In this document: positions 753-23,244 of the stretch, piece by piece
How positions within the stretch are numbered: the stretch's first letter is position 1
Layout of the letters: each line of letters begins with the position of its first letter
From: a virus
DNA: 24,814 bases
IMG/VR virus record: IMGVR_UViG_3300006810_000359
Coordinates: 1 to 24,814 of that record
Strand: one strand, 5' to 3'
Program-made: the position numbers and the translations under genes
The notes under the pieces: generated by a model
Database searches by the model: none
Told to the model about the DNA's origin: nothing
The model's input: the letters and a program-made list of their open reading frames with translations, nothing else

Positions 753-800
753 GGACCCGCAAGGACACGCCAGCCCTCGGCCCCCGGTTGTGGACACGCC
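753..800 (+). repeat. Three short GGAC(C/A)CGC repeats in the capsid gene leader
   Basis: The 98-nt gap between the scaffolding-like gene and the capsid gene is the longest intergenic stretch in the window. It contains GGACCCGC at 753-760 and two copies of GGACACGCC at 763-771 and 792-800. The starts are 10 and 29 nt apart. No clear -35/-10 promoter was seen. The repeats could be an operator, an RNA element or chance in GC-rich DNA. Confidence 0.3.
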
Positions 801-829
801 GCTTCCCCTCGAACCTCTTGGAGAATTCA

Positions 830-1846
830 ATGCCGACCACGACCGGCGTCCAGAATGACATTCTGGCCAGTACCCTGCGCATCCTGCGCGACAAGGAAGT
901 GGACAACACGTTCCGCATCATCCCCCTTGTCGACGCAGTCAACACCCTCGGAAACGTCGAAGACGTTGACGGTGGCTCGTACATCGACAGCCCCGTCATC
1001 CTGACCGACCACTCCACCATCACCCAGCTGTCCAACGGCTACGAGGCAGTCAGCCTTGCAGTCAAGGATCCGCTCCGCACGGCCACCTACTCCTGGTGTG
1101 ACGCGACCGCTCCGGTTGTCATCACCCGCAAGGAAGAGCTGAGCAACAAGGGTGGGAGGGCGATCATCCGTATTGCCGAGGCCCGTCTCAAGCAGACCAT
1201 GGGCATGTTCAAGCGCGAGATCGAGAAGCAGCTCATCGCTGGTGACTCGACGATCTTGACCGACCTCGAGACCCTCAACGGCCTCGACGGCGCAACGGGC
1301 TGGTTTGAAGAGGGTGCCTTTGGTTCGCAGACCAACACGGTCGGCGGCATCGCCAAGGGCGGCTTCCCCAGCTCCTGGCAGAACCAGGTTCAGAACGGTT
1401 CGTTCTCCAGCAACGGTCTGCAGAAGATGCAGTCTTTGCTCATCGACTGTCAGCAGTTCGCCCCTGAGGGAGACATTGATCTCATCCTCGCGAGCCCCGC
1501 AAGCTACGGTCTGTACAAGAACGAGCTGCAGGCGCTTGAGCGGTACGTGTCAGCCACCGAGGTTCGGAACATGGCGGGTCGCCTCGCCCTGGAGTTCAAC
1601 GGCGCGCAGATGTTCATCGAGCCCAATCTCGGATTCACCGGATCGGGCGGCTCCAACAAGATGAGCATGTACTTCTTGAACAGCCGTCTGTTCAACATCT
1701 ACTTCGACCGCGATGCCAAGTTCGCCCTCGGCGACATGGAGTCCATCAGCGGCTACGCAGCCATGTCGGCTCAGATTGCAGTGCGGATGCAAATCTGCAC
1801 CAGCAACTTGTCCGGTCACGGCGTCCTCGTCAACGCGGAGACTTGA
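830..1846 (+). CDS. Major capsid protein
   Basis: This 338-residue protein is the best candidate for the main shell subunit of the head. I chose ATG 830 because GGAG at 820-823 sits 6 nt upstream; an in-frame GTG at 788 lacks such a site and would add 14 residues unlike a capsid N-terminus. It has no signal peptide or membrane segment. The N-terminal third resembles an N-arm leading into an extended-loop region (SYIDSPVILTDH), followed by a long helix (about residues 110-140, RIAEARLKQTMGMFKREIEK) and a mixed alpha/beta C-terminal part with a LILASPASYGLYKNELQAL segment. This fits an HK97-like capsid fold, but the fold is inferred, not demonstrated. The size (about 37 kDa) and the position between a scaffolding-like gene and a small decoration-like gene support the call. 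Confidence 0.85.
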   Translation: MPTTTGVQNDILASTLRILRDKEVDNTFRIIPLVDAVNTLGNVEDVDGGSYIDSPVILTDHSTITQLSNGYEAVSLAVKDPLRTATYSWCDATAPVVITRKEELSNKGGRAIIRIAEARLKQTMGMFKREIEKQLIAGDSTILTDLETLNGLDGATGWFEEGAFGSQTNTVGGIAKGGFPSSWQNQVQNGSFSSNGLQKMQSLLIDCQQFAPEGDIDLILASPASYGLYKNELQALERYVSATEVRNMAGRLALEFNGAQMFIEPNLGFTGSGGSNKMSMYFLNSRLFNIYFDRDAKFALGDMESISGYAAMSAQIAVRMQICTSNLSGHGVLVNAET

Positions 1847-8968: not shown

Positions 8969-10867
8969 ATGGCCCTTCCAAAGCCGACATTCCTGCCGTA
9001 CCAACCCCAGCAGTTTGCCGATGTAAGCTCAGCCGTGACGCTGGGTATGCAGCTCTTTGGCAAGTATCACCCCTCGCAGCTTCAGCAGTTGCGCTACCAG
9101 CAGATGCTGCAAGAGCGGGAAGGCAAGGAGCGCAGCGCACAAGAGGAGCTGAAGACGATCGCCGAGGAGCGGGCAGCACTCCGTCGGTACCAAACCAGCT
9201 TCCGAGAAGCGGGCCTTGGTCCAAGCGGCAAGGTTCCCCTGACCGGCAGTCGTCAGGCAGGCGGAGGCGGAGCCGGGGGCGGAGCCGGTCGAGGCGGCGA
9301 GTCGATGACAGGCGTGCTGAACGCAGCCGCCAAGTTCTCGGCCAACACGACCGACCGTCGAGGGCTGGCTACGGAGGACCGCAACAGGATTGAGCGCAAG
9401 TACGACATGACCTCTGGCGTCGGCTCACAGCTTGTGGGCGACGTGTTGCGCAAAGCGGAATCCGTAGCCGGTAGTGCAAGCGGCGTCAGCACATCAGCTT
9501 TGTTGGGCGCAATTGCCTCGGCATCGGGTGAGTATTTTTCTCGCATCGAGGGCGTCAACATCTCAGGAGAGCGAAAGGAGATGGCGGCTGCGCGCCTGTT
9601 CGATGCACTCAAGGGGCGGTACAGTGCGAAGGTTGACAGCAACGTAGCGATGGCCATTGATGCAGTGCTCGAGACGCCAGGGTTTTTGACCGGAGCACTT
9701 TCCGAAGGCATCAGCCCGTCAGCCATTATCCGTCAGCGGCAACAGGCTGAGCTCAGCGGTGTCACTGCAGGCCCTGATCGTTTTGAAGAGTTTGCCTTCA
9801 GCAAGCTGCAGACCATTGACACCAACAAAGATGGCAAGGTCAGCGCCGAGGAGCGGCAGACCTACGAGCAGGAGCTTGCGTCGTTTCGCAAAGCCTACGG
9901 ATTGGCGGAGCCACTTACCGATGAAGAGGAGTTCTTCCTTGGCCGGTACATCAACGCGCTAAGCGACGACGGGCAGGCTGATCTCAAAGAGTTCGAAAAC
10001 GAAGCCGAGTACCAGCAGGCGCTGGCTGCCTACGAGAAGGGGCGCAACCTTGAGTCTCTGCCTCGCGGCTTTGCTCGGTTCTACGACGTTGACTACCTCG
10101 CCTCCAAGCAACGCGACTTGCAGCTCCGCGAGCGAGAGGCAGCCCTCCTGGGTCGCGAGACACCCCAGCAGCAGGCAGCACAAGCCTTCCTCGGGCTGCC
10201 AACCGTTAGCGCAGAGGCATTCCAGGCCGCAGCACAGGTCAGCCCACGGGCTGCTGAAGGGCTGCCCTACATGATCCAGCGGTACCAGCAGGCCAACGGT
10301 GACGTGCAGCCCAGGGACCGTGTTGAGCAGACGGCACAACAGCTCATCAGCAGGGGCAACCGCGACTTCAATATGTTCATGCAGCAGATCGACAAGCTGT
10401 ACCCCAACGACAACGATGCCCGACTCAAAGCGGCGGCCTACTACGGGGCAGCGCAGTTCGGTGCTGATGCTCGAGGCTCGACCTTCGACACTGCTACGCA
10501 ACAAGGCAACATCGCTGGCATGGCGCAAGGCATCCAGACTGCAGAGCGACAGTTTGCTTCCGACGTAGAAAGGACAGCAGCGGCCCCGGTCGCTCCACCT
10601 CCTCCTGTCATGGACCCGGCTCAGGCCATGCGTGCTCAGGCAGCGGCCTACGTTGCAGGGTTCACACCCGATGCTGGACAAGCAGCGTATGTGCCAGCAC
10701 CACAGCCCACGGTGATGGAGCGGAGTGGTCTGATGGGTGACGCTACAATCCCAGCGCCACCTGTCGGACCCCCACCGCTAACTGCCAGAGAAATGTTTTT
10801 GCAGAACAACCCAGAGTTGTTTGACCCCATCTACGGGCAGCCAGGCGGCTACACGGCGGGCCGATGA
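8969..10867 (+). CDS. Putative internal virion / ejection protein with EF-hand pair, 632 aa
   Basis: A 632-residue protein starts at ATG 8969, with AGGAG at 8958-8962 overlapping the upstream stop. The N-terminal 80 residues are Gln/Glu-rich and helical, followed by a Gly-rich linker (98-110). Residues 284-295 read DTNKDGKVSAEE, a canonical calcium-binding EF-hand loop with ligands at positions 1, 3, 5, 9 and 12, flanked by helices. A second, degenerate loop (330-341, ending DDGQADLKE, with Ala at position 1) lies about 35 residues on, as in paired EF-hands. The C-terminal region is Pro/Ala/Gln-rich. It has no membrane segment or enzyme motif. Gene order suggests a T7 gp15-like ejection component; calcium binding is predicted from the motif only. 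Confidence 0.6.
   Translation: MALPKPTFLPYQPQQFADVSSAVTLGMQLFGKYHPSQLQQLRYQQMLQEREGKERSAQEELKTIAEERAALRRYQTSFREAGLGPSGKVPLTGSRQAGGGGAGGGAGRGGESMTGVLNAAAKFSANTTDRRGLATEDRNRIERKYDMTSGVGSQLVGDVLRKAESVAGSASGVSTSALLGAIASASGEYFSRIEGVNISGERKEMAAARLFDALKGRYSAKVDSNVAMAIDAVLETPGFLTGALSEGISPSAIIRQRQQAELSGVTAGPDRFEEFAFSKLQTIDTNKDGKVSAEERQTYEQELASFRKAYGLAEPLTDEEEFFLGRYINALSDDGQADLKEFENEAEYQQALAAYEKGRNLESLPRGFARFYDVDYLASKQRDLQLREREAALLGRETPQQQAAQAFLGLPTVSAEAFQAAAQVSPRAAEGLPYMIQRYQQANGDVQPRDRVEQTAQQLISRGNRDFNMFMQQIDKLYPNDNDARLKAAAYYGAAQFGADARGSTFDTATQQGNIAGMAQGIQTAERQFASDVERTAAAPVAPPPPVMDPAQAMRAQAAAYVAGFTPDAGQAAYVPAPQPTVMERSGLMGDATIPAPPVGPPPLTAREMFLQNNPELFDPIYGQPGGYTAGR
9818..9853 (+). other. EF-hand calcium-binding loop (coding motif)
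   Basis: These 12 codons encode D-T-N-K-D-G-K-V-S-A-E-E, residues 284-295 of the 632-aa protein. Asp1, Asn3, Asp5, Gly6, Val8, Ser9 and Glu12 all match the EF-hand consensus. The incoming helix is FEEFAFSKLQTI and the outgoing helix is RQTYEQELASFRKAYG. Confidence 0.8.
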
Positions 10868-13800
10868 GCGCAAGCGAACTGCTTCGCGCAGCAGAGGTTG
10901 CAGAGCAGAAGGGTCGTCCCGAGTCTGCGCGGTTGTTGCGCGAAATGGCAGCGAAGCTCGGTGCCACGCCTGCAGCACCCGCCGCGCCCACGCCTACTGT
11001 GGCCCCTGCGGCTGTACCTGCGCGAACCCAGACTATGTACGCGCCTGACGATACTGGCTTTTCGCCCCCTCCCGGTGCGCCATTGTCGTCCGACAGCATC
11101 GCAACTCGGAGGGCTAGGATACAGGGCGCAGAGTTCATGGAAGACCTGCGCGCTGGCAGGCTTGATCCTGAGGTTCGAGAACGTCAACGCCAGTACCGTG
11201 AAGCGCTTGTTGAGCGCCCACGATTTGGGGGTCGACCGTTTGAAAACATTGAGGCCGGCGCTGTTGTCTATGCGCCTGAGTCACCCGTCGAGCCAGACAT
11301 TGCTCCCGTAGAGATGGACGACCAGCAGGTTGCCATGGAGTTGTCGCTACCTCGCGGCGCTTCCTACATGCGCAGGGCTGCACCAACCGATGCTCGCGTC
11401 TACATGGAACGGTTGCAGGGCCCGCGACCTGATGGGTCGGGCGGCAACATCATCAGGCCACCGGAGCAACGCGGGGAGGACATTGACCTCGAGCGACAGT
11501 TCGCTGCAACATCGGCAGCGGTTCAGGCTTTGCAGGACAAGGAGACCGCCGCGCTCATGGGGCGTACAAAGTACACGCCACAATACGCAGAGCAGAGCCT
11601 GCTCGAGCGCATCAATCCGCTCAGTCAACGTCGGCTTGTAACGCCAGGCGAACAGGCAACCCGGCAGCTTGAAGACCAGTTCATCATGCAGGCCGGAATG
11701 TCAGAGGAGACAGCGCGGGCCGCTGCTCGGGCTGGCACTCGCGACGTGGGTGAGCAGCGACTAACCACACAGGGAGATCCGGTCACAACGGGTGAGCGGA
11801 ATCCGTTCTTCTATGGCTTGGCGGCAGCATTCACGCCTTGGGCGTTGTTGCCGACGTTTCGCGAGAGCCGGTTGCGGGTAACCAAAAAGGTTGACCCAAG
11901 CGATCCGACTCGACAGTTGTACATCGAGCAGTACCGCGATCCCTACACTGGTGACCTGCGCGCTCCCAAGTGGTGGGAACGACTTTCAGAAGCGGTGAGT
12001 CGGCAGGTTTATGCGCCTGATGTGTCCGAAAACATTCGGCGACAGCAAGCGTTTGCTCGACAGACGTTAGCCAGTGAGCTGATTGAGTCAGGCATGCAGG
12101 CCGACGAGGCACGTCGACTGGTGATCGAAACGGTTCGCGACGAGAACCGTGCTCGTAGAAACAAAGTCATCGACATTGCAACCAGAGCAATCCCAGGCTT
12201 CGAACGGGAAGATGAGCGGTTGGACGCGGTTCAAGAACCGCTCATGCGTGGACTGCTGTCCACCACCAAGACAGACTCAGAGCTGGGTCTGCTGCAGGAA
12301 ACCCCAGTCGCACAGCTCTTGCGGAATGCGGGCGTGTTCCCAACGCTGGTCAACACGGCGTTGTTCGAGCTCCTCCCGTTTACCTACGAGATGGACCCCG
12401 AGACCGGCGAGCCCTACGACAAGAACGACCCGGCTTATCGCATCGATCAACTGTTGCGTCAGGGTCTGCGTCTTCGAGGATTCACGGAAGATGAAATCGA
12501 AAGGCGTCGAACCGGTGGCTTTCGGTTGCCCTCTTCGGCTGCGACAACCGGCGTCGGTGCGTCAGGACCGGAGGGGCCGTTCATGCCCGTCCCGTTCCAG
12601 GGTGCCACGCGCACGCGACCCCACGCCATGGATCCCACCGGCATGCGGGCAGCTCGCCAGACTGGCGGCATCGTTGCCAAGTTCGCGGAGGCCCTGCGGT
12701 CGGGTCGATTCTTGGGCGACGAGCTTATGTCAATCCCAGGGTACGTTGCTGAGTTTCCGGTAGAGCCAGCCGAGGTGCAGCCCGGCTACGGAGTTCTCAG
12801 TGAGCGGTATGATGCCATGGAAAATGGCACGCCCACGGCACCGTTCTGGCAGGGCGTTGTCTACGAGGGAGTGTATGGCATCGGCCCTGTCCCAGCAGCA
12901 AGAGCGGCGGCTCGCACTGCGATTGGTGGTACGGAGACCCTTGCGCGAGGAGCGAAAGAGGCCCTTCGTTTCCGGGCTCCGAAGGCAGCCAAGGCTGCCG
13001 ACGTTGTTGAAAAGCTGGCATACGCAGCGGGCGATCCGGTGCAGGCTGCGAAGACCAGCAAGAGCATTCGTATCGCGCAAGAGCTTGCAGAGATGGGTGA
13101 TGTTGATGCTGCCCGCATCAGTGAGATCGAGCTGACCAAGGGCTTGAACAACGCCCAGCGTGTGGCGGCAGAAGCCATCGGCGAAGAGGTGCTTGCGCCT
13201 TACATTCTCCAGGCCCGACTGGAGGCGGGGCCAGCAACAGTCAGTGTTGGTATGGCGAACGACCTTGCTGCCAACAGCAAAGCTGCTCGCACAATCCTCG
13301 AGGACGTAGGCGTACTGAATGGTCCGCGCGATCGGTTGCTCACGCAGTCCGAGATCGCTGCTCTGCGCAAGCAGCTAAACCAGCATTCAGCTTCGGCGTG
13401 GCGTGTTGCGATCAGCGACATCATGTTGAACAACAAGATTAGCGCAAGGCAAAAAGCCCGCGACATTATCGCGTTGCTCGAGGACGAGGGCGTTGTCGTC
13501 AGCGCACTGCCTGGTGGGCCTGACTTGCGGCGTGCATCGAACGCTTCTGATGCGGCAGCCCCGTCGTTGTTGGAGTCAGCCCTGGGGCAGATGGAAGGAT
13601 TGAACAGCGCCATCCCTGTCATGGGCAATCTGCCTGTGATGACAACGCTGCACGACCTGGGGAAACAGGCTGTCATGGGCGCGCGCAGCGGTGGCGATGT
13701 GCAGTTCGGTGGCCGCGCAGGCCGTGTGGTCAATCGTCGCATGGGTGCAGACAAGGTCACTCAAGATCGCATCCTTCGCACACCCGAAGAACTGTTGCGG

Positions 13801-16800
13801 GCTACGTCAGCAGCGGGCGGCCGAGTTGTTGAAAGTGCTCTTGAGAACATCGTTCCCAAGAACATGACCGTTGTCTCAAACAGTCTGATGGTGCCCACCA
13901 ACAAGCTGACCGAGGAGGTGTTTGAAGCTGTCGAGCGGAGCATGACAGCACTGCAGCCCACCGTTCGCAACGGGCCGAAGATTGGCGGCACCGTCTCGCA
14001 GCTCTACTACTTTTCTCCTGATGCTGCCGACGAGTTCATCCGCAGCCAGGGCAAAGCCAACATCGAGCGTTCTGAACTTATGTCAGGCATGCTGCTCCGT
14101 ATGCAAAGCGGCAAGCCTTTGACGGGAGCCGAGGCCCGCATTGTCGAAGACAGCCTGTTGACCCAAGCGTTCCGTGACGCGATGGGCAGTGAGGCTCGCG
14201 AGATTATGTTTGCGGGACGGCAGCTCGAGCGTGCCGAGGAACCGTTGGTTGAGGTGGGTCTCGACGTGCGGCCCGAGAAGCGGGTGCCCAGAACTGTGCC
14301 TGGCTCGGGGCAAGTTATTCCTGGGCGACTGACTGAGGCGGTGTCGGACTTGAAGTTGGTGGCCAAAGAGGCTGGAGGTGCAGCCCTTGGGCGAGCACTA
14401 AACCGAGGAGCAAAGCGCAACGCTCAAGATGCCGACGAGATTGCCACTAACTTCCCGACGCAGGTGGATGCAGACCTGCCCCGCGTACTGCAGCGGGTGA
14501 AGAGCGAGATCGCATCCATCGGCGACAACATTCGAGTTGAGATTCGGGACGCAGCCACCGGGGCAAAGAACCCAGAAGCGGCATTCAACCAAGTTATTCA
14601 GAAGCGCATTGAGCGCCAGATGATAGAGATCACGCAGACAATAGACAAGCGTGCAGAAGAGTTGGCCAAGACCTTTGGCATGACACCCGAGCAGGCGTAC
14701 TTGTACCTGACGTACCAGTCGCCCTCTGCCACCGCGCGTCGAGGGTTGGGCCAGGAGTTGTTCGCAGGCAACATTCCGCCCAACATCAGGCAGCTTGCTA
14801 TTCAGCGAGAGCAGGCCCAGTTGATGATGAATGCCTGGCGTGATGTTCTGCAGGACTTCTTTGGCAAGGATCTGTACGACAGTTTTATGACCGACGGTTT
14901 GTTGCGCAACCTCGTAGCGGTTCCGAATGTTGACCCCAACTTCATTGAGAGTGCTGCCGACGTTGTGCCTTTCACGACTCGCAACCTGCAGGATATGATT
15001 GATGCGCTGCGCATTCGCAACCCCAAGCTGAAAGGGCGCGGGTTGTCCAAGGCTCCGTTTGTCGAGGCGGGTGGAGTCGAGACGCGCGACGGTGTGTTCC
15101 CCGCAATGCTGTCGTGGGCCATGGGTGCCGACGCACGGGTCGTCAAGGAACGATCGCTTCGCGAGCTGGCCGAGACCAACCCTGACTTGTTTGTCAACGT
15201 CATGCCGTCGATCGTTGGGCGCACACCGCAGCGCGTGCAGGGTGAGGCAAGGCTCATCCTCGACAACCGGGCTGGTGCGCTCGATGTACTGAACGAGATC
15301 ATCGAAGCCCCTACCAGCGTTCGAGGCAAGGGCTCTCCACTTCGCGGTCGCGAGAACAGTGTGCGTTTCTCCATGCCCATCACCGATTCACGAGGGCAGA
15401 ACAAGGTCAACGGTCTTGGGCAGATTGAGGCGGGAGAGTCGGTGTACGTGCAAGAGCTGGACAACCTTGCCCGCCGTGCCGGGCTGGCAATGTCCGCACG
15501 CACCCGTCAGCAGATTGCCGAGCAGGTGTTCGAGCAGACCATGATGAACAACCGGTCTGTGCCTGACCTCGAGGAGTTGTTGGGCAACATTGAAACGAAC
15601 GCCAACCTTGACCTCAGTGCGTTCGAAACCCAGGCGACCACCAACGCAATCAAGTCCATCATGCGCGGGCTGGGTGAGGACTTTGCGCTCGCGCGTGCAG
15701 ACCTTGACAACCTGCCACCGGGCACGCCTCCGATCCCGTCGCTCCCTGAGATGATCGAGGGCGGCATGGCTCCCGACGATGTGTTCCGCATGCTGCGCTA
15801 CGCACTCGGCAACGATGACGACGCAACCCTGCTCCAGCACATTGCCTACGCTCGGCACTCCGGTGCGCCCGACGATGTGATCATCGCCGGTCTCCGTCGC
15901 AACATCATTGACAGGGCGTACACGACCTTCGTGCAACCGATGGTTGAGGATATGCGGTCTGTCCGATCAAGCATGGGGTACAAGCCCAACGTCACCAAGA
16001 ACGACCTGTTCAACCTGCAGCGAGAGTTGGAGCTGGCAGACCCCACCTCCGTGCGGCTGGGCCTGTTCGGGCAGCAGTGGAGCGACACGCTCAAAGAACT
16101 GCAGGCTGCCTCTGACTCTGGCAAGTTGGCGCAAAACGTAGAAAACCTGCGAAGACGTGACGCTGCTGCGAAGGCTGTCGACGAGGACATTCCATTGGCA
16201 GAGCGACAGGCGGCCAGGACAGAGGTGGCGATTGAGGCTGTTCGCAGTTTCTTGGTTACCCGTCGGCGCATTGCTGCCAGCGGTGCGCTTGCTGGTGGTG
16301 CGCCCATCCCCCTTCCTTTGGGACGGTACATCGTTCCTAACGCTGTGACCGCGCCTCTTATCGCTATGTCGACGGTGGGTCCGGTCAACGCTGTTCGCAT
16401 GTTGAAGGGGCCAGGCTACGCCTCGCAGCTTGCAGACGTAGAAGGTCAACTTGCCAACATCATCAACAAACCACTGACCCAGGCACGGTCGACCCCCAAC
16501 CCAAGCGAGTACCGGTTCACTTCGAAAACCGGCAAGCGGTGGACGCAAGGCGAGATTGACGAAGCAATCAAGCGCAACAACATTCTCATCAGCCGTGGGC
16601 AGATGGAGTTCAACGACGCTTTCATTGCCGACGTGCTTCGCGATGCGAAGCTGCTCATTGACGCTACTCCTGCCCCGGCCATGCGGCAGCATCTTCGCCA
16701 GCTCGACCCTCGCCGCACCTCGTTCTTTCAGTACGTCGCCAACGCTACAGACAAAGCGTTCCGCGAGAACATGTTTGTCAGCGCATTGAAGCAGGGCATG

Positions 16801-17730
16801 ACCGAAGAGCAGGCTGCACGCATGGCTCGTGCCGTTGTGCTCGACTACGGCGCTGTTCCTGACAAGGTAAAGAACGGCTTCAACCGATACATTCTGTTCC
16901 TGTCGTTCCGTTTTGCCAACTACATGGAGAGCGTGCGAGGCATGGCGCGCGATCCAAACACGTTCATGCGCAGCCTCAATGCCTTGGACAACAGCCAGAC
17001 CCAGAGCGACCTGGCGCTGACCGGGCCCGACTACGTTCGCATGCGGCCTATCCTCAGCAAGATTTACGACTTCGACGAGGGTGCAGGATCGGCGCTGTTC
17101 GGCCCGTCGGTGCCGTTTGGTGAGGCATACGCGGACATGTACCGCTTCGCTACGTGGGCGGCGCAGGCTGGTGCGCGCAACAACAACTTTGTCGGTGCGG
17201 CTGCCGGGCAGATCGAAGAAGAGAACCTCATCCCCTTGCTCAGCCTTGCCATCTCTGCGTACAAGATCAAGGGCAACCTCAGCGACACGGGCTCGAAGGT
17301 TCCCAGCGAGTGGGTGGCTTACGCCATGGGCACGCCCAACAACTTTGTGTGGAGCATGATGCGCGAGCACGTCAAGCCTGTGCCGAAGGACCGCGAGGCG
17401 GGTGGTCGCGTTCGTGCCATGGACCCGATGTACCCGCAAGAAGGGTTTCAGGAATACCAGTGGAAAAGCAAGAACGCAGAGCTGGCGTTCAAGGCTGCTC
17501 TTATGACGTTTGCCTACATGGGCATTGAGCGCACACGAGCAGACTACACCAAGCTGGGCATGACTTACGGAGTCGACGAGTTCCTCGACCCTGCGCGCTT
17601 TGGACTGGCTCCGACGTTGGGCTACGCGACCGGTGTCACAACACCCATCAACTTGGAAAGCATTGAGAAGCAATCACGTCGTGCACTGCGCGAACAGGAG
17701 AAGACTGCGCGCGAACAAGCGCGGGATTGA
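10864..17730 (+). CDS. Giant internal virion protein (2288 aa), polyvalent-protein-like
   Basis: One uninterrupted frame of 2288 residues, about 28% of the window, starts by ATGA overlap with the previous gene. The N-terminal 30 residues form a helical hairpin (LLRAAEVAEQKGRPESARLL), a motif common at the start of large phage-ejected proteins. A Pro/Ala linker follows at 34-57. Hydrophobic or amphipathic patches occur near residues 312-330, 656-690 and 1800-1845. Near the C-terminus, helical residues around FRENMFVSALKQGMTEEQ lead to a VVLDYG motif (Asp1994-Gly1996) and an aromatic ILFLSFRFANY stretch, resembling a segment I associate with polyvalent and large podovirus virion proteins. No lysozyme, protease (HExxH) or polymerase motif could be seen. 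It is probably the T7 gp16-like ejected protein; internal enzymatic domains may be missed by eye. Confidence 0.6.
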   Translation: MSASELLRAAEVAEQKGRPESARLLREMAAKLGATPAAPAAPTPTVAPAAVPARTQTMYAPDDTGFSPPPGAPLSSDSIATRRARIQGAEFMEDLRAGRLDPEVRERQRQYREALVERPRFGGRPFENIEAGAVVYAPESPVEPDIAPVEMDDQQVAMELSLPRGASYMRRAAPTDARVYMERLQGPRPDGSGGNIIRPPEQRGEDIDLERQFAATSAAVQALQDKETAALMGRTKYTPQYAEQSLLERINPLSQRRLVTPGEQATRQLEDQFIMQAGMSEETARAAARAGTRDVGEQRLTTQGDPVTTGERNPFFYGLAAAFTPWALLPTFRESRLRVTKKVDPSDPTRQLYIEQYRDPYTGDLRAPKWWERLSEAVSRQVYAPDVSENIRRQQAFARQTLASELIESGMQADEARRLVIETVRDENRARRNKVIDIATRAIPGFEREDERLDAVQEPLMRGLLSTTKTDSELGLLQETPVAQLLRNAGVFPTLVNTALFELLPFTYEMDPETGEPYDKNDPAYRIDQLLRQGLRLRGFTEDEIERRRTGGFRLPSSAATTGVGASGPEGPFMPVPFQGATRTRPHAMDPTGMRAARQTGGIVAKFAEALRSGRFLGDELMSIPGYVAEFPVEPAEVQPGYGVLSERYDAMENGTPTAPFWQGVVYEGVYGIGPVPAARAAARTAIGGTETLARGAKEALRFRAPKAAKAADVVEKLAYAAGDPVQAAKTSKSIRIAQELAEMGDVDAARISEIELTKGLNNAQRVAAEAIGEEVLAPYILQARLEAGPATVSVGMANDLAANSKAARTILEDVGVLNGPRDRLLTQSEIAALRKQLNQHSASAWRVAISDIMLNNKISARQKARDIIALLEDEGVVVSALPGGPDLRRASNASDAAAPSLLESALGQMEGLNSAIPVMGNLPVMTTLHDLGKQAVMGARSGGDVQFGGRAGRVVNRRMGADKVTQDRILRTPEELLRATSAAGGRVVESALENIVPKNMTVVSNSLMVPTNKLTEEVFEAVERSMTALQPTVRNGPKIGGTVSQLYYFSPDAADEFIRSQGKANIERSELMSGMLLRMQSGKPLTGAEARIVEDSLLTQAFRDAMGSEAREIMFAGRQLERAEEPLVEVGLDVRPEKRVPRTVPGSGQVIPGRLTEAVSDLKLVAKEAGGAALGRALNRGAKRNAQDADEIATNFPTQVDADLPRVLQRVKSEIASIGDNIRVEIRDAATGAKNPEAAFNQVIQKRIERQMIEITQTIDKRAEELAKTFGMTPEQAYLYLTYQSPSATARRGLGQELFAGNIPPNIRQLAIQREQAQLMMNAWRDVLQDFFGKDLYDSFMTDGLLRNLVAVPNVDPNFIESAADVVPFTTRNLQDMIDALRIRNPKLKGRGLSKAPFVEAGGVETRDGVFPAMLSWAMGADARVVKERSLRELAETNPDLFVNVMPSIVGRTPQRVQGEARLILDNRAGALDVLNEIIEAPTSVRGKGSPLRGRENSVRFSMPITDSRGQNKVNGLGQIEAGESVYVQELDNLARRAGLAMSARTRQQIAEQVFEQTMMNNRSVPDLEELLGNIETNANLDLSAFETQATTNAIKSIMRGLGEDFALARADLDNLPPGTPPIPSLPEMIEGGMAPDDVFRMLRYALGNDDDATLLQHIAYARHSGAPDDVIIAGLRRNIIDRAYTTFVQPMVEDMRSVRSSMGYKPNVTKNDLFNLQRELELADPTSVRLGLFGQQWSDTLKELQAASDSGKLAQNVENLRRRDAAAKAVDEDIPLAERQAARTEVAIEAVRSFLVTRRRIAASGALAGGAPIPLPLGRYIVPNAVTAPLIAMSTVGPVNAVRMLKGPGYASQLADVEGQLANIINKPLTQARSTPNPSEYRFTSKTGKRWTQGEIDEAIKRNNILISRGQMEFNDAFIADVLRDAKLLIDATPAPAMRQHLRQLDPRRTSFFQYVANATDKAFRENMFVSALKQGMTEEQAARMARAVVLDYGAVPDKVKNGFNRYILFLSFRFANYMESVRGMARDPNTFMRSLNALDNSQTQSDLALTGPDYVRMRPILSKIYDFDEGAGSALFGPSVPFGEAYADMYRFATWAAQAGARNNNFVGAAAGQIEEENLIPLLSLAISAYKIKGNLSDTGSKVPSEWVAYAMGTPNNFVWSMMREHVKPVPKDREAGGRVRAMDPMYPQEGFQEYQWKSKNAELAFKAALMTFAYMGIERTRADYTKLGMTYGVDEFLDPARFGLAPTLGYATGVTTPINLESIEKQSRRALREQEKTAREQARD

Positions 17731-20055: not shown

Positions 20056-20468
20056 GCTGGTCGTACAGTCAGCGGTCGCTGACCCGTCTGGGTACCTGTC
20101 ACGAAGACCTCCAGCTTCTCATGCGCGAGGCGCTGGTGGACCCGGACTGCCCGTATGACATCACGGTGCTCGAAGGTCACCGAGGCAAAGAGCGCCAGAA
20201 CCGAGCAGTTGCAGAGGGCAGGAGCAAGTTGCTGTGGCCCAAGTCAAAGCACAACAGCATGCCCTCGATGGCGGTGGACGTGGCCCCTTACGTGGACGGC
20301 AAGGTGTCCTGGGACTGGGACCACTACCACCCCTTGGTCAGCCACATCAAGGACGTGTGGGCCAGGCTGGTTGCCAACGAGTTGGTGACGGGCCAGTACA
20401 CACTGACCGCTGGCGCTGACTGGTCTACACTCCGGGATGGTCCACATTGGCAGTTGGACTCAAAATGA
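20052..20468 (+). CDS. Endolysin, M15-type peptidoglycan peptidase
   Basis: A 138-residue protein, a typical length for single-domain phage M15 endolysins (L-alanyl-D-glutamate or D-Ala endopeptidases). Visible zinc ligands are His67 and Asp76 in SKHNSMPSMAVD and His132 in DGPHWQL, with Asp129 as the likely catalytic acid; this matches the SxHxxxxAxD...DxxHW layout. There is no signal peptide, so it should reach the peptidoglycan after holin-type membrane permeabilisation. It overlaps the 50-aa gene (ATGA) and the spanin-like gene (ATGA), and a GGGGGAAG site lies upstream. The cleaved bond cannot be told from the sequence. Confidence 0.85.
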   Translation: MSWSYSQRSLTRLGTCHEDLQLLMREALVDPDCPYDITVLEGHRGKERQNRAVAEGRSKLLWPKSKHNSMPSMAVDVAPYVDGKVSWDWDHYHPLVSHIKDVWARLVANELVTGQYTLTAGADWSTLRDGPHWQLDSK

Positions 20469-20875
20469 TTCCTGCTCTTATCGTAGGCGGTGTCCTGCTT
20501 TTCGGCGGGGGCATCGCCACTGGCGTTGCTCTCAACCGAGACAAGACGCACAAGATTCTTGAGGAGCAGACGCAGCTGATCGGCACCATTCAGGATGGGC
20601 AACGCACCCTGGTCGAGGCTGCGGGCAAGCCCGTGGTCATCGACGCAGAAGTGCGGGCGACCCTCGCTGAGGTGCCGCCCGCTTGCATCGCGTCCTTGGG
20701 AGGCGACCCGCTCAGCCCGCAGTGCATGCTCCAGGCATGCTGGCAGTACGGGCAGAGCGCTGCCCAACGCCCCGACTGTGATGCTGTCGAGGCGCTGGTG
20801 ATTGCTGCTCAGAAGGGCATGTCTTCTTCAGCAGGCAGTGGTCGACGAGTCGGCGTCGGAGCAGACGAGCGGTAG
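20465..20875 (+). CDS. Spanin-like single-span membrane protein
   Basis: A 136-residue protein starts at ATG 20465 (ATGA overlap with the endolysin); an in-frame TTG at 20447 is less likely. It has one N-terminal membrane helix (about residues 3-23, LIVGGVLLFGGGIATGVA), then a helical, polar domain predicted to be outside the cytoplasm. A cysteine-containing tail carries Cys74, 87, 92 and 105 (PPACIASL, CMLQACWQYGQSAAQRPDC). The position right after the endolysin and this topology fit an Rz-like inner-membrane spanin that disrupts the outer membrane, suggesting a Gram-negative host. The last 22 residues (Ser/Gly/Arg-rich) are coded on the strand opposite the ssb 3' end. No separate outer-membrane lipoprotein partner was found. 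Confidence 0.6.
   Translation: MIPALIVGGVLLFGGGIATGVALNRDKTHKILEEQTQLIGTIQDGQRTLVEAAGKPVVIDAEVRATLAEVPPACIASLGGDPLSPQCMLQACWQYGQSAAQRPDCDAVEALVIAAQKGMSSSAGSGRRVGVGADER
20805..20834. terminator. Imperfect hairpin at the convergent gene junction
   Basis: CTGCT at 20805-20809 pairs with AGCAG at 20830-20834, and AGAAGG at 20811-20816 pairs with TCTTCT at 20822-20827 (one wobble) around a GCATG loop, separated by a small internal loop. It covers the ssb stop codon and lies inside the spanin-like gene. A second 6-bp hairpin (ACGAGC 20865-20870 with GCTCGT 20877-20882) surrounds the spanin-like stop. No T-run follows on either strand, so a bidirectional terminator role is tentative. Confidence 0.3.
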
Positions 20876-21207
20876 GGCTCGTTGTCGTCCTGCTGCTTGG
20901 GCCCAACGAAAGACCAGCTGTCAACGGCCACCTCGGCACTGTGCCCCGTGGAACCATCGCGCTTCTCGTAGGCGCGGACGCTGGCGTTGCCCGACACGGC
21001 GACCCAGCTGCCCTTGTTCAGGTACTGCGCAGCGCGCTCGGCCTGCTTGCCAAACACGGCTGCAGTCCACCAAGTGGTTGTCTTGTTTTCGCCCCAACCG
21101 GTGTCGATGGGGATGGTCAACTTGACGACCGTGGTGCCACGGTTGCTGGTGCGGGATTCAGGGTCGCGGGCCAGGCGGCCAACGAGGGTTGTGTGTGCTG
21201 CACTCAT
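20809..21207 (-). CDS. ssb: Single-stranded DNA-binding protein
   Basis: A 132-residue SSB that coats single-stranded DNA during replication and recombination. The OB-fold is recognisable: LVGRLARDPESR near residues 8-19, WWTAAVFGKQAERAAQYLNKG at about 46-66, then WVAVSGNASVRAYEK. A flexible Pro/Ser-rich linker and the acidic tip EEDMPF at the C-terminus, the usual protein-docking tail, follow. I chose ATG 21207 because GGAG (complement of 21214-21217) precedes it by 6 nt. The ribosome-binding site directly abuts the exonuclease stop (TAAGGAG). Its 3' end overlaps the convergent spanin-like gene by 67 nt. Confidence 0.95.
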   Translation of the reverse strand: MSAAHTTLVGRLARDPESRTSNRGTTVVKLTIPIDTGWGENKTTTWWTAAVFGKQAERAAQYLNKGSWVAVSGNASVRAYEKRDGSTGHSAEVAVDSWSFVGPKQQDDNEPYRSSAPTPTRRPLPAEEDMPF

Positions 21208-21217
21208 GTGTGTCTCC
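21207..21217 (-). promoter_or_regulatory. Shared ribosome-binding leader (AGGAGACACACATG type), ssb copy
   Basis: Upstream of ssb the sequence is AAGGAGACACACATG. The same GGAcACACA spacer occurs before the exonuclease (GAGGACACACATG) and ERF-like genes (AAGGACACACAATG). The RuvC-like start, which is coupled by overlap, lacks it. Confidence 0.6.
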
Positions 21218-21676
21218 TTAGAGCATGTAGTCGGGGGCTTCGATCTGAACGACGTTGCCATGATGGGCCCTGCCGGGCCAAGACTGGGTCACCTCACACT
21301 CGGCGAGGGTGTCCAGCATAGAGCGGTGGGTGAGAAAGGCAGAGTCCAGGGTTGCATCCAGCCACTGCACAACGGTGCAGTCGTGGGGCGCAGCCGACTC
21401 GACCACGATGTTGTAGGCCTTGTACTCCACGAGGTGCAGAGGCACGTCGAAGAGAACGGCGGCTGCATGCAGGTAGTGGGCGTGTTGAATGGGCCACTGG
21501 AACTTGGCCCCCTGCCTGCGGATCTGCTCAGGGTCAGTGGTGAAGAAGGTCTTGAGGTCTGCGACCACCAAGCCCCGCTCCTCGCTGTAGTGCACGATGT
21601 CGAGCTTGGCCTTGCACTCGCAGGCTTGGTCCTTCCAGATGCTGACCTTCTCCGTGAACGTGTTGGGATGCGACAA
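21218..21676 (-). pseudogene. Exonuclease (RecE/PD-(D/E)XK type), C-terminal part after an in-frame amber
   Basis: This is the catalytic half of one exonuclease frame. The frame runs without interruption from just after the TAG at 21710-21712 to the TAA at 21218, and continues in phase with the upstream fragment. It holds the nuclease core CKAKLD (Asp141 of the joined protein) and VADLKT (Asp155, Lys157), the PD-(D/E)XK pattern, and a QHAHYLHAAAV stretch like the Q-x3-Y of RecE-type nucleases. The first start-like codon is TTG 21676 with no Shine-Dalgarno site, so independent translation is doubtful. Joined with the N-terminal part the length is 267 codons before the stop, normal for the family. 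It may be a pseudogene, a sequence error or a readthrough product. Confidence 0.7.
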
Positions 21677-21709
21677 CAGTTCAGCAACCCAAGGGTGCTC
21701 GTTGACCTG

Positions 21710-21712
21710 CTA
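21710..21712 (-). other. In-frame amber codon splitting the exonuclease
   Basis: Codon 104 of the joined exonuclease frame is TAG, in the context GCG TAG CAG GTC. Coding character is unbroken on both sides and the frame is unchanged, so a single base change would restore the gene. The base after the stop is C and the next codon is CAG, partly like the CAR-YYA context of leaky stops, but the following GTC does not fit. TAG ends several other genes here, so it is not globally reassigned. Confidence 0.85.
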
Positions 21713-22021
21713 CGCCATGGCAACCACGAGCTCGTGCTCTTGCGGAGACAGCACGTCACGGTCACCGACGGTCTCGAGGAATGCTTTGTATGCCTTCTGC
21801 CTCTTGTCTCTCTTGCCCTCGTACACAGCAAACTGCTGGTCGAACGTGAACGGCTCGAGCACGAGGCAATGGGTCGCGCGTCCGAGACGGAAGGCTGCGT
21901 TGTCGGCAGCCGGGTGCTCGGAGTTGTGCCTGTAGTGCAGTGGGCTCTTGGCCATGTGCTTGAGCTTGCTGTAGTTTACAGCCGGGTAGGCCCGGTACTG
22001 TGCGTCGGTCATGTCATTCAT
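21710..22021 (-). pseudogene. Exonuclease (RecE/PD-(D/E)XK type), N-terminal part
   Basis: 103 residues run from ATG 22021 to the amber codon. The start is supported by GAGGA upstream and by overlap with the RuvC-like stop (ATGAATGA). An in-frame TTG at 22039 is less likely. The sequence AYPAVNYSKLKHMAKSPLHY and FRLGRATHCLVLEP (with His51) is the N-terminal hallmark of RecE-like exonucleases of the PDDEXK family (DUF3799 or exonuclease VIII-like), where similar text reads S-x-LK...SP-x-H(Y/F) and LG-x-A-x-H-x-LVLEP. Those enzymes resect double-stranded DNA to feed a single-strand annealing protein, here the ERF-like product upstream. The fragment lacks the catalytic Asp and Lys, so alone it should be inactive. 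Confidence 0.75.
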
Positions 22022-22550
22022 GTGTGTCCTCGGGGTCAAGGGCAGGAAGAAGAAGGTGTGCGAAGACTACGCCCAGCGCCTGCCACGCATGGGATGACAC
22101 ACCGTAGAGAGGACCAGGGTCAGCCTTCTTGCCGATGGCTACCTGGCGTGAGCCCCCATGAATCTCAATGAGGGCGTTGCGAACGTGCGAGTCCTTGTTG
22201 CCGTGCCGTGCACAGCCCAAGGCTTGGAGTACCTGCCGTCGGTAGTACAGATGGCAGTCCATCTTGCGGGCCGCACAAGCCTCCCAGATCCGTCCTACCA
22301 CCTCGGTGGTACGAACGACTTCGGTCGACGGTGGGCCCGCCTGTGTGCGCTCTACGGCCACGCTGCAGGGTGTGCCGGATTGGGCAGCCCGGCGACGCCA
22401 GGCATCGAGAGCAAAACGCACCGTGTCGAGGGACGCCTGCTTCTCTGTGTGCAGCACCCGACCCACTGCCCCCTCCTCCGGTACCTCGTACACGACGAGG
22501 CCAGAGGCAAGGGGGCCGGGGTCGACCCCGATGACGAGCCGCTTAGGCAT
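22014..22550 (-). CDS. RuvC-like Holliday junction resolvase
   Basis: A 178-residue protein with the RNase H-like fold expected to cleave branched DNA made by replication and recombination. Asp10 lies in VIGVDPG at residues 6-12 (first acid), Glu67 in VAVERTQ (second acid), and SSHAWQALG (His154) occupies the third motif where RuvC proteins have an Asp/His-rich DAL-type signature. The central GNKDSHVRNALIEIHGG and DPGPLYGV segments are the phage RuvC-like pattern. I chose ATG 22550, which overlaps the ERF-like stop (ATGCCTAA). A GGTGGTG site lies just upstream. It overlaps the exonuclease start by 8 nt. Confidence 0.85.
   Translation of the reverse strand: MPKRLVIGVDPGPLASGLVVYEVPEEGAVGRVLHTEKQASLDTVRFALDAWRRRAAQSGTPCSVAVERTQAGPPSTEVVRTTEVVGRIWEACAARKMDCHLYYRRQVLQALGCARHGNKDSHVRNALIEIHGGSRQVAIGKKADPGPLYGVSSHAWQALGVVFAHLLLPALDPEDTHE
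22019..22033 (-). promoter_or_regulatory. Shared ribosome-binding leader, exonuclease copy
   Basis: The complement reads CCGAGGACACACATG, with GAGGA as Shine-Dalgarno and ACACAC as spacer, inside the RuvC-like 3' coding end. It decides ATG 22021 as the start over the TTG at 22039. Confidence 0.6.
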
Positions 22551-23244
22551 CGTCACCACCGGGGGTTGGCACGACGACGGCCTGTTCTGCCTGCTCGGCT
22601 GCATCAGCCTGTGCCTGGAAGTGAGCGCGGACGATGTCGCCCTTGTCGGTGCGCAGCCAGCGGATGACAGCCGCCCGGCGGGCGTTGTTCATCTTCGCAA
22701 CCTGGGGTCGCATGGCCGCCAAGCACCACTGGTCGAGCTCGGCCAGGGTGAGGTCCACGTCGAGGCAGGCCTGCTCAACATCAGCCAGCGTCACCTCGGG
22801 GGCAGGCGGTGCAGCCACCCGGGCGGGCTGAGCCTGGACGGGGACGGCCCGACCCACGGCTGCGTTTCCATCATCGTCCCCCTGCATCAAGCCACTGATG
22901 CTGGAGGCAGAGTAGCGACGCAGGTAGGAGATGCAGCTGCCCATGGCGTGGGCGTCACGTCGCTTGCCGATGGGCATCGACATGGTCGACCGCATCCACT
23001 GCCCGCTGCTGTGTGTGACCACCGTGGTGAGGGACACGAGGTCGCCGTCGAAGGTGGGGTGCTGTATGAGAGACAGGCCGTGCCGGTTGAGGGCAGGCAG
23101 GATGGCCCCCAGCACGGAGCTGAGCGTGCTGTACTTCGACTTAAAGTGCGGGTTCTTTGCATCGTAAGCGGCGGCCCGCATCTCACCCTGTGCTTGGGCC
23201 AGTGCGTGGAAGAGCTGCTGCATGTTGTCGGAGGTTTCGTACAT
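22543..23244 (-). CDS. erf: ERF-family single-strand annealing protein
   Basis: A 233-residue recombinase of the ERF (essential recombination function) family. It pairs complementary single strands, typically partnered with an exonuclease and SSB, both present downstream. Diagnostic text is KNPHFKSKYSTL at residues 30-41, HGLSLIQ at 55-61, and SCISYLRRYSASSISGL at 103-119, followed by DDDGNAA. The N-terminal 130 residues carry the core. A Pro/Ala linker near 133-150 and a helical C-terminal region with acidic Ala/Glu/Gln tail follow, of unclear role. Start ATG 23244 has AAGGA 7 nt upstream. It overlaps the RuvC-like start by 8 nt. Confidence 0.9.
   Translation of the reverse strand: MYETSDNMQQLFHALAQAQGEMRAAAYDAKNPHFKSKYSTLSSVLGAILPALNRHGLSLIQHPTFDGDLVSLTTVVTHSSGQWMRSTMSMPIGKRRDAHAMGSCISYLRRYSASSISGLMQGDDDGNAAVGRAVPVQAQPARVAAPPAPEVTLADVEQACLDVDLTLAELDQWCLAAMRPQVAKMNNARRAAVIRWLRTDKGDIVRAHFQAQADAAEQAEQAVVVPTPGGDDA

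Follow-up and report, generated by a model that had tools for sequence, protein, structure and literature searches.

A RecE/exonuclease VIII-like PD-(D/E)XK exonuclease gene (exo) is interrupted by a single in-frame TAG in the window, the whole 24,814-base stretch of DNA that was analysed and that constitutes the IMG/VR record itself. Based on comparison with related sequences, the TAG is private to this record and corresponds to one G-to-T change on the coding strand (C-to-A on the plus strand). The resulting GAG-to-TAG difference at codon 104 is very probably a metagenomic assembly error or a very young loss-of-function mutation, and not a new form of decoding. The gene, its two halves and its neighbours are located as follows.

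21218..22021, minus strand: RecE/exonuclease VIII-like PD-(D/E)XK exonuclease gene (exo), from ATG 22021 to TAA 21220-21218, with one internal TAG
21710..21712, minus strand: in-frame TAG, codon 104 from ATG 22021; GAG (Glu) in both close relatives
21713..22021, minus strand: N-terminal half of exo, 103 codons, with the GRATHCLVLEP motif and the conserved His
21218..21709, minus strand: C-terminal half of exo, with the conserved KLD Asp and the DLKT Asp and Lys; DUF3799 positions 103-228
20809..21207, minus strand: single-strand DNA-binding protein (SSB) gene, downstream of exo, with a good ribosome-binding site of its own
22014..22550, minus strand: RuvC-like Holliday junction resolvase gene, overlapping the exo start
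22543..23244, minus strand: Erf-like single-strand annealing protein gene (PHROG 2324, 1.2e-38)

The helicase/primase, Erf, RuvC-like, exo and SSB genes form a standard phage recombination cluster, in which the Erf-like gene at 22543-23244 provides the annealing-protein neighbour of a RecE-like exonuclease. An alternative start for exo, TTG 22039, lies in frame with ATG 22021, and the amber codon becomes residue 110 when the product is counted from it. From either start to the TAA, the TAG at 21712-21710 is the only internal in-frame stop. A preliminary description of this DNA, which named no strand, had read the region as a RecE/PD-(D/E)XK exonuclease split by a single amber codon, and this reading is borne out by family searches. 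The read-through product matches Pfam DUF3799 (1.1e-16), PHROG 412 (exonuclease VIII; 2.9e-46, residues 7-272) and E. coli RecE (PDB 3h4r; 3.6e-06, residues 14-256). All three alignments are continuous across the stop position, and those to DUF3799 and PHROG 412 place the whole domain in the RecE/exonuclease VIII-like family. In the PD-(D/E)XK core, H57 (GRATH), D147 (KLD), and D161 and K163 (DLKT) line up with the residues of RecE in 3h4r and are invariant across ten aligned homologues. The LGRATHCLVLEP motif precedes the stop and KLD and DLKT follow it, at the positions previously given. Thus, exo shares with the nuclease domain of E. coli RecE (exonuclease VIII) both the alignment over residues 14-256 and the core His, Asp, Asp and Lys. 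Unlike E. coli RecE, it is a stand-alone domain of ~267 amino acids, is partnered by an Erf-like protein instead of RecT, and contains one TAG. Judged from its sequence, exo belongs among the ordinary RecE-like exonuclease genes of phages, with predicted 5' to 3' dsDNA exonuclease activity.

IMG/VR was scanned three times with protein-based searches and once with a DNA pattern, and these scans recovered only two close relatives and, beyond these, one distant relative. In the sibling record, IMGVR_UViG_3300017734_000130 (L002/L015), the exo product shares 98% amino-acid identity with that of the window, and the DNA is ~98% identical over 9.7 kb. In IMGVR_UViG_3300030103_005721 (L004), the corresponding amino-acid identity is 88%. 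Both relatives have the same gene and the same neighbours as the window. In contrast to the window, where codon 104 is TAG, both encode Glu (GAG) at this codon within a single open exo frame. An alignment of RecE-like homologues at codon 104, suggested in the preliminary description, extends this comparison to seven distant homologues, in which the residue in this column is Glu, Asp, Arg or Ala (mostly Glu or Asp) and no stop occurs. In these sequences, the position is usually acidic within the exonuclease family. Because both close relatives have GAG and all seven distant homologues have an amino acid, the TAG is assigned to this record alone, which counts against both a conserved two-gene arrangement and a conserved readthrough signal. 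A nucleotide search of known phages gave no matches, and tblastn recovered distant homologues only, the best-ranked among the matches listed being 25-34% identical. Scanning of bacterial and archaeal genomes returned no relative.

The TAG separates the catalytic residues of the predicted enzyme. Since the conserved His lies before it and the Asp, Asp and Lys lie after it, the enzyme cannot consist of either half alone. By itself, the N-terminal half matches no Pfam family above the cut-off. The earlier proposal that the halves join into one nuclease agrees with the family alignments that run through the TAG and with the intact gene in the 98% relative. Chance juxtaposition of two open reading frames (ORFs) is ruled out, as the 98%-identical relative has the same gene uninterrupted. 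A split nuclease, encoded by two separate genes with independent starts, could use TTG 21676 as the start of its C-terminal half. Although this is the best start available, its Shine-Dalgarno pairing is weak (-3.1 kcal/mol, compared with -5.9 kcal/mol for the exo ATG and -7.9 kcal/mol for the SSB ATG); the preliminary description had noted that this half lacks a Shine-Dalgarno site at its start. The catalytic His would, in addition, sit on the other chain. Conservation of two separate genes in relatives, which that description had named as evidence against a single interrupted gene, was not seen: a single gene is present in each of the two close relatives and in the distant homologues. A split nuclease is therefore considered extremely unlikely.

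On the opposite strand, a 394-residue ORF (window 20987-22171, plus strand) runs across exo and is open in the window. The exo change is silent in this frame, converting CTC to CTA, both of which encode Leu. In the 98% sibling, this frame likewise stays open across exo, but in L004 it contains a stop. Based on that stop, the 394-residue ORF is taken as a shadow frame, which it probably is.

If the host or the phage suppressed the TAG or allowed readthrough of it, full-length nuclease would be made, and the frame 3' of the TAG is still intact. An intact downstream frame is, however, expected anyway after a new change. In-frame stops kept under purifying selection have been reported in bacteria (PMC7918605), but the argument for them rests on conservation, and conservation is absent for the exo TAG. 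Both close relatives have GAG at this position instead of the conserved stop that would mark programmed readthrough. TAG also terminates six other genes in the window (stops at 731, 8959, 18217, 19036, 19900 and 20875). All six were confirmed as TAG, which upholds the earlier statement that the codon is not reassigned genome-wide, and reading through these terminators would lengthen the genes by 31 to 635 codons. The window (a partial genome), the sibling L015 contig, which covers the missing part of the window, and a third contig (G002) yielded no tRNA gene. The window and the sibling contigs thus gave no candidate for the suppressor tRNA that the preliminary description had proposed to look for. 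An Rfam search of the window returned no RNA families.

Phages that reassign TAG show this codon across many genes, and about half of them carry an amber suppressor tRNA (PMC11210395). The window resembles the translation table 15 phages (TAG = Gln; PMC11210395) in having an in-frame TAG in a phage gene. In contrast to the many in-frame TAGs of such phages, which leave TAG unused as a terminator, the window has one TAG in one gene and uses TAG as a terminator; no suppressor tRNA gene was found, and the aligned residue is Glu and not Gln. On these comparisons, programmed suppression finds no support, and readthrough or suppression of the TAG by host or phage appears very unlikely. It is also very unlikely that full-length exonuclease is made, at a lowered dose, through efficient amber suppression in the host or through a leaky codon. 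Among the options offered in the preliminary description, a recent nonsense mutation or a sequence error fits these observations, whereas amber suppression or readthrough does not, given the GAG in both close relatives and the lack of a tRNA gene in the window and the sibling contigs. The accompanying suggestion that the ERF pathway would depend on suppression is unsupported, since suppression itself is without support. For a lone in-frame stop in one phage record, close relatives should be checked before recoding is proposed.

The preferred reading is that one record has acquired a private GAG-to-TAG change, by error or by recent mutation, in an otherwise ordinary exo gene. As exo is otherwise intact and shares 98% identity with that of the sibling, the disruption would not be old, and we infer a recent origin for the change. 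Lineage-specific changes were polarised with L004. In the exo, RuvC-like and ERF genes, the window lineage has five non-synonymous changes (stop included) and one synonymous change, compared with one non-synonymous and five synonymous changes in the sibling lineage (Fisher p = 0.08), a comparison of 5:1 with 1:5 that covers about a dozen events in a gene grouping picked after seeing the data. The helicase gene of the window has no non-synonymous and six synonymous changes (p = 0.015 relative to the exo, RuvC-like and ERF genes). All five non-synonymous changes of the window lineage are G:C to A:T or G:C to T:A. This pattern suggests that selection has not acted on the window-private changes, as would be the case for errors or very young mutations; it is a lean, not proof. 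Random single-base changes in these genes create a stop in ~3.3% of cases (about 1 in 30), and one nonsense change in a few dozen unselected differences therefore needs no special explanation.

A sequencing or assembly error, in which case exo would be intact in the phage, has about an even chance of being the correct explanation. Such an error would be consistent with a single private base in a metagenomic-type virus record, with nearby private changes that are mostly non-synonymous and of base-change types typical of DNA damage, and with the perfect remainder of the exo frame, although the same base changes are common as natural mutations too. A real and recent nonsense mutation, inactivating the exonuclease in the phage or in part of its population, is given somewhat less than an even chance. 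Real substitutions are plentiful, with the sibling differing at about 2% of sites, and about 1 in 30 random coding changes creates a stop. Between the sibling and L004, however, the exo codon differences (70 synonymous, 28 non-synonymous) are as for a gene under purifying selection, and because of this selection a null allele would not be expected to persist for long.

If the TAG is real, translation would end after 103 residues, leaving a fragment without the PD-(D/E)XK catalytic residues. We infer that exo function would then be absent, as no nuclease would be made, and that the loss would be confined to the exonuclease. The SSB could still start from its own site (-7.9 kcal/mol). A real mutation would mean that the phage is losing its recombination exonuclease and keeping its annealing protein and SSB. 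The finding is an ordinary one and matters little.

Several further features of the window were observed. Both ends of the window overlap with the sibling L015 contig. This implies that the phage genome is circular or permuted and measures about 33.7 kb, with about 8.9 kb missing from the window. The major capsid protein (window 788-1846) is only distantly related (25-28%) to its counterparts in Myxococcus phages Mx8/Mx9 and in a handful of others, and sampling of the phage group seems poor. A single 2288-residue ORF (10864-17730) takes up about one-quarter of the window and presumably encodes a large virion protein; at E 0.01, no PHROG family was matched by its first 1645 residues. Finally, window 20500-20770 has 53 differences from the sibling in 250 bases, with small indels, whereas much of the flanking sequence is ~98-99% identical. 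This block is probably a recombination patch or part of a fast-evolving gene (20447-20875).
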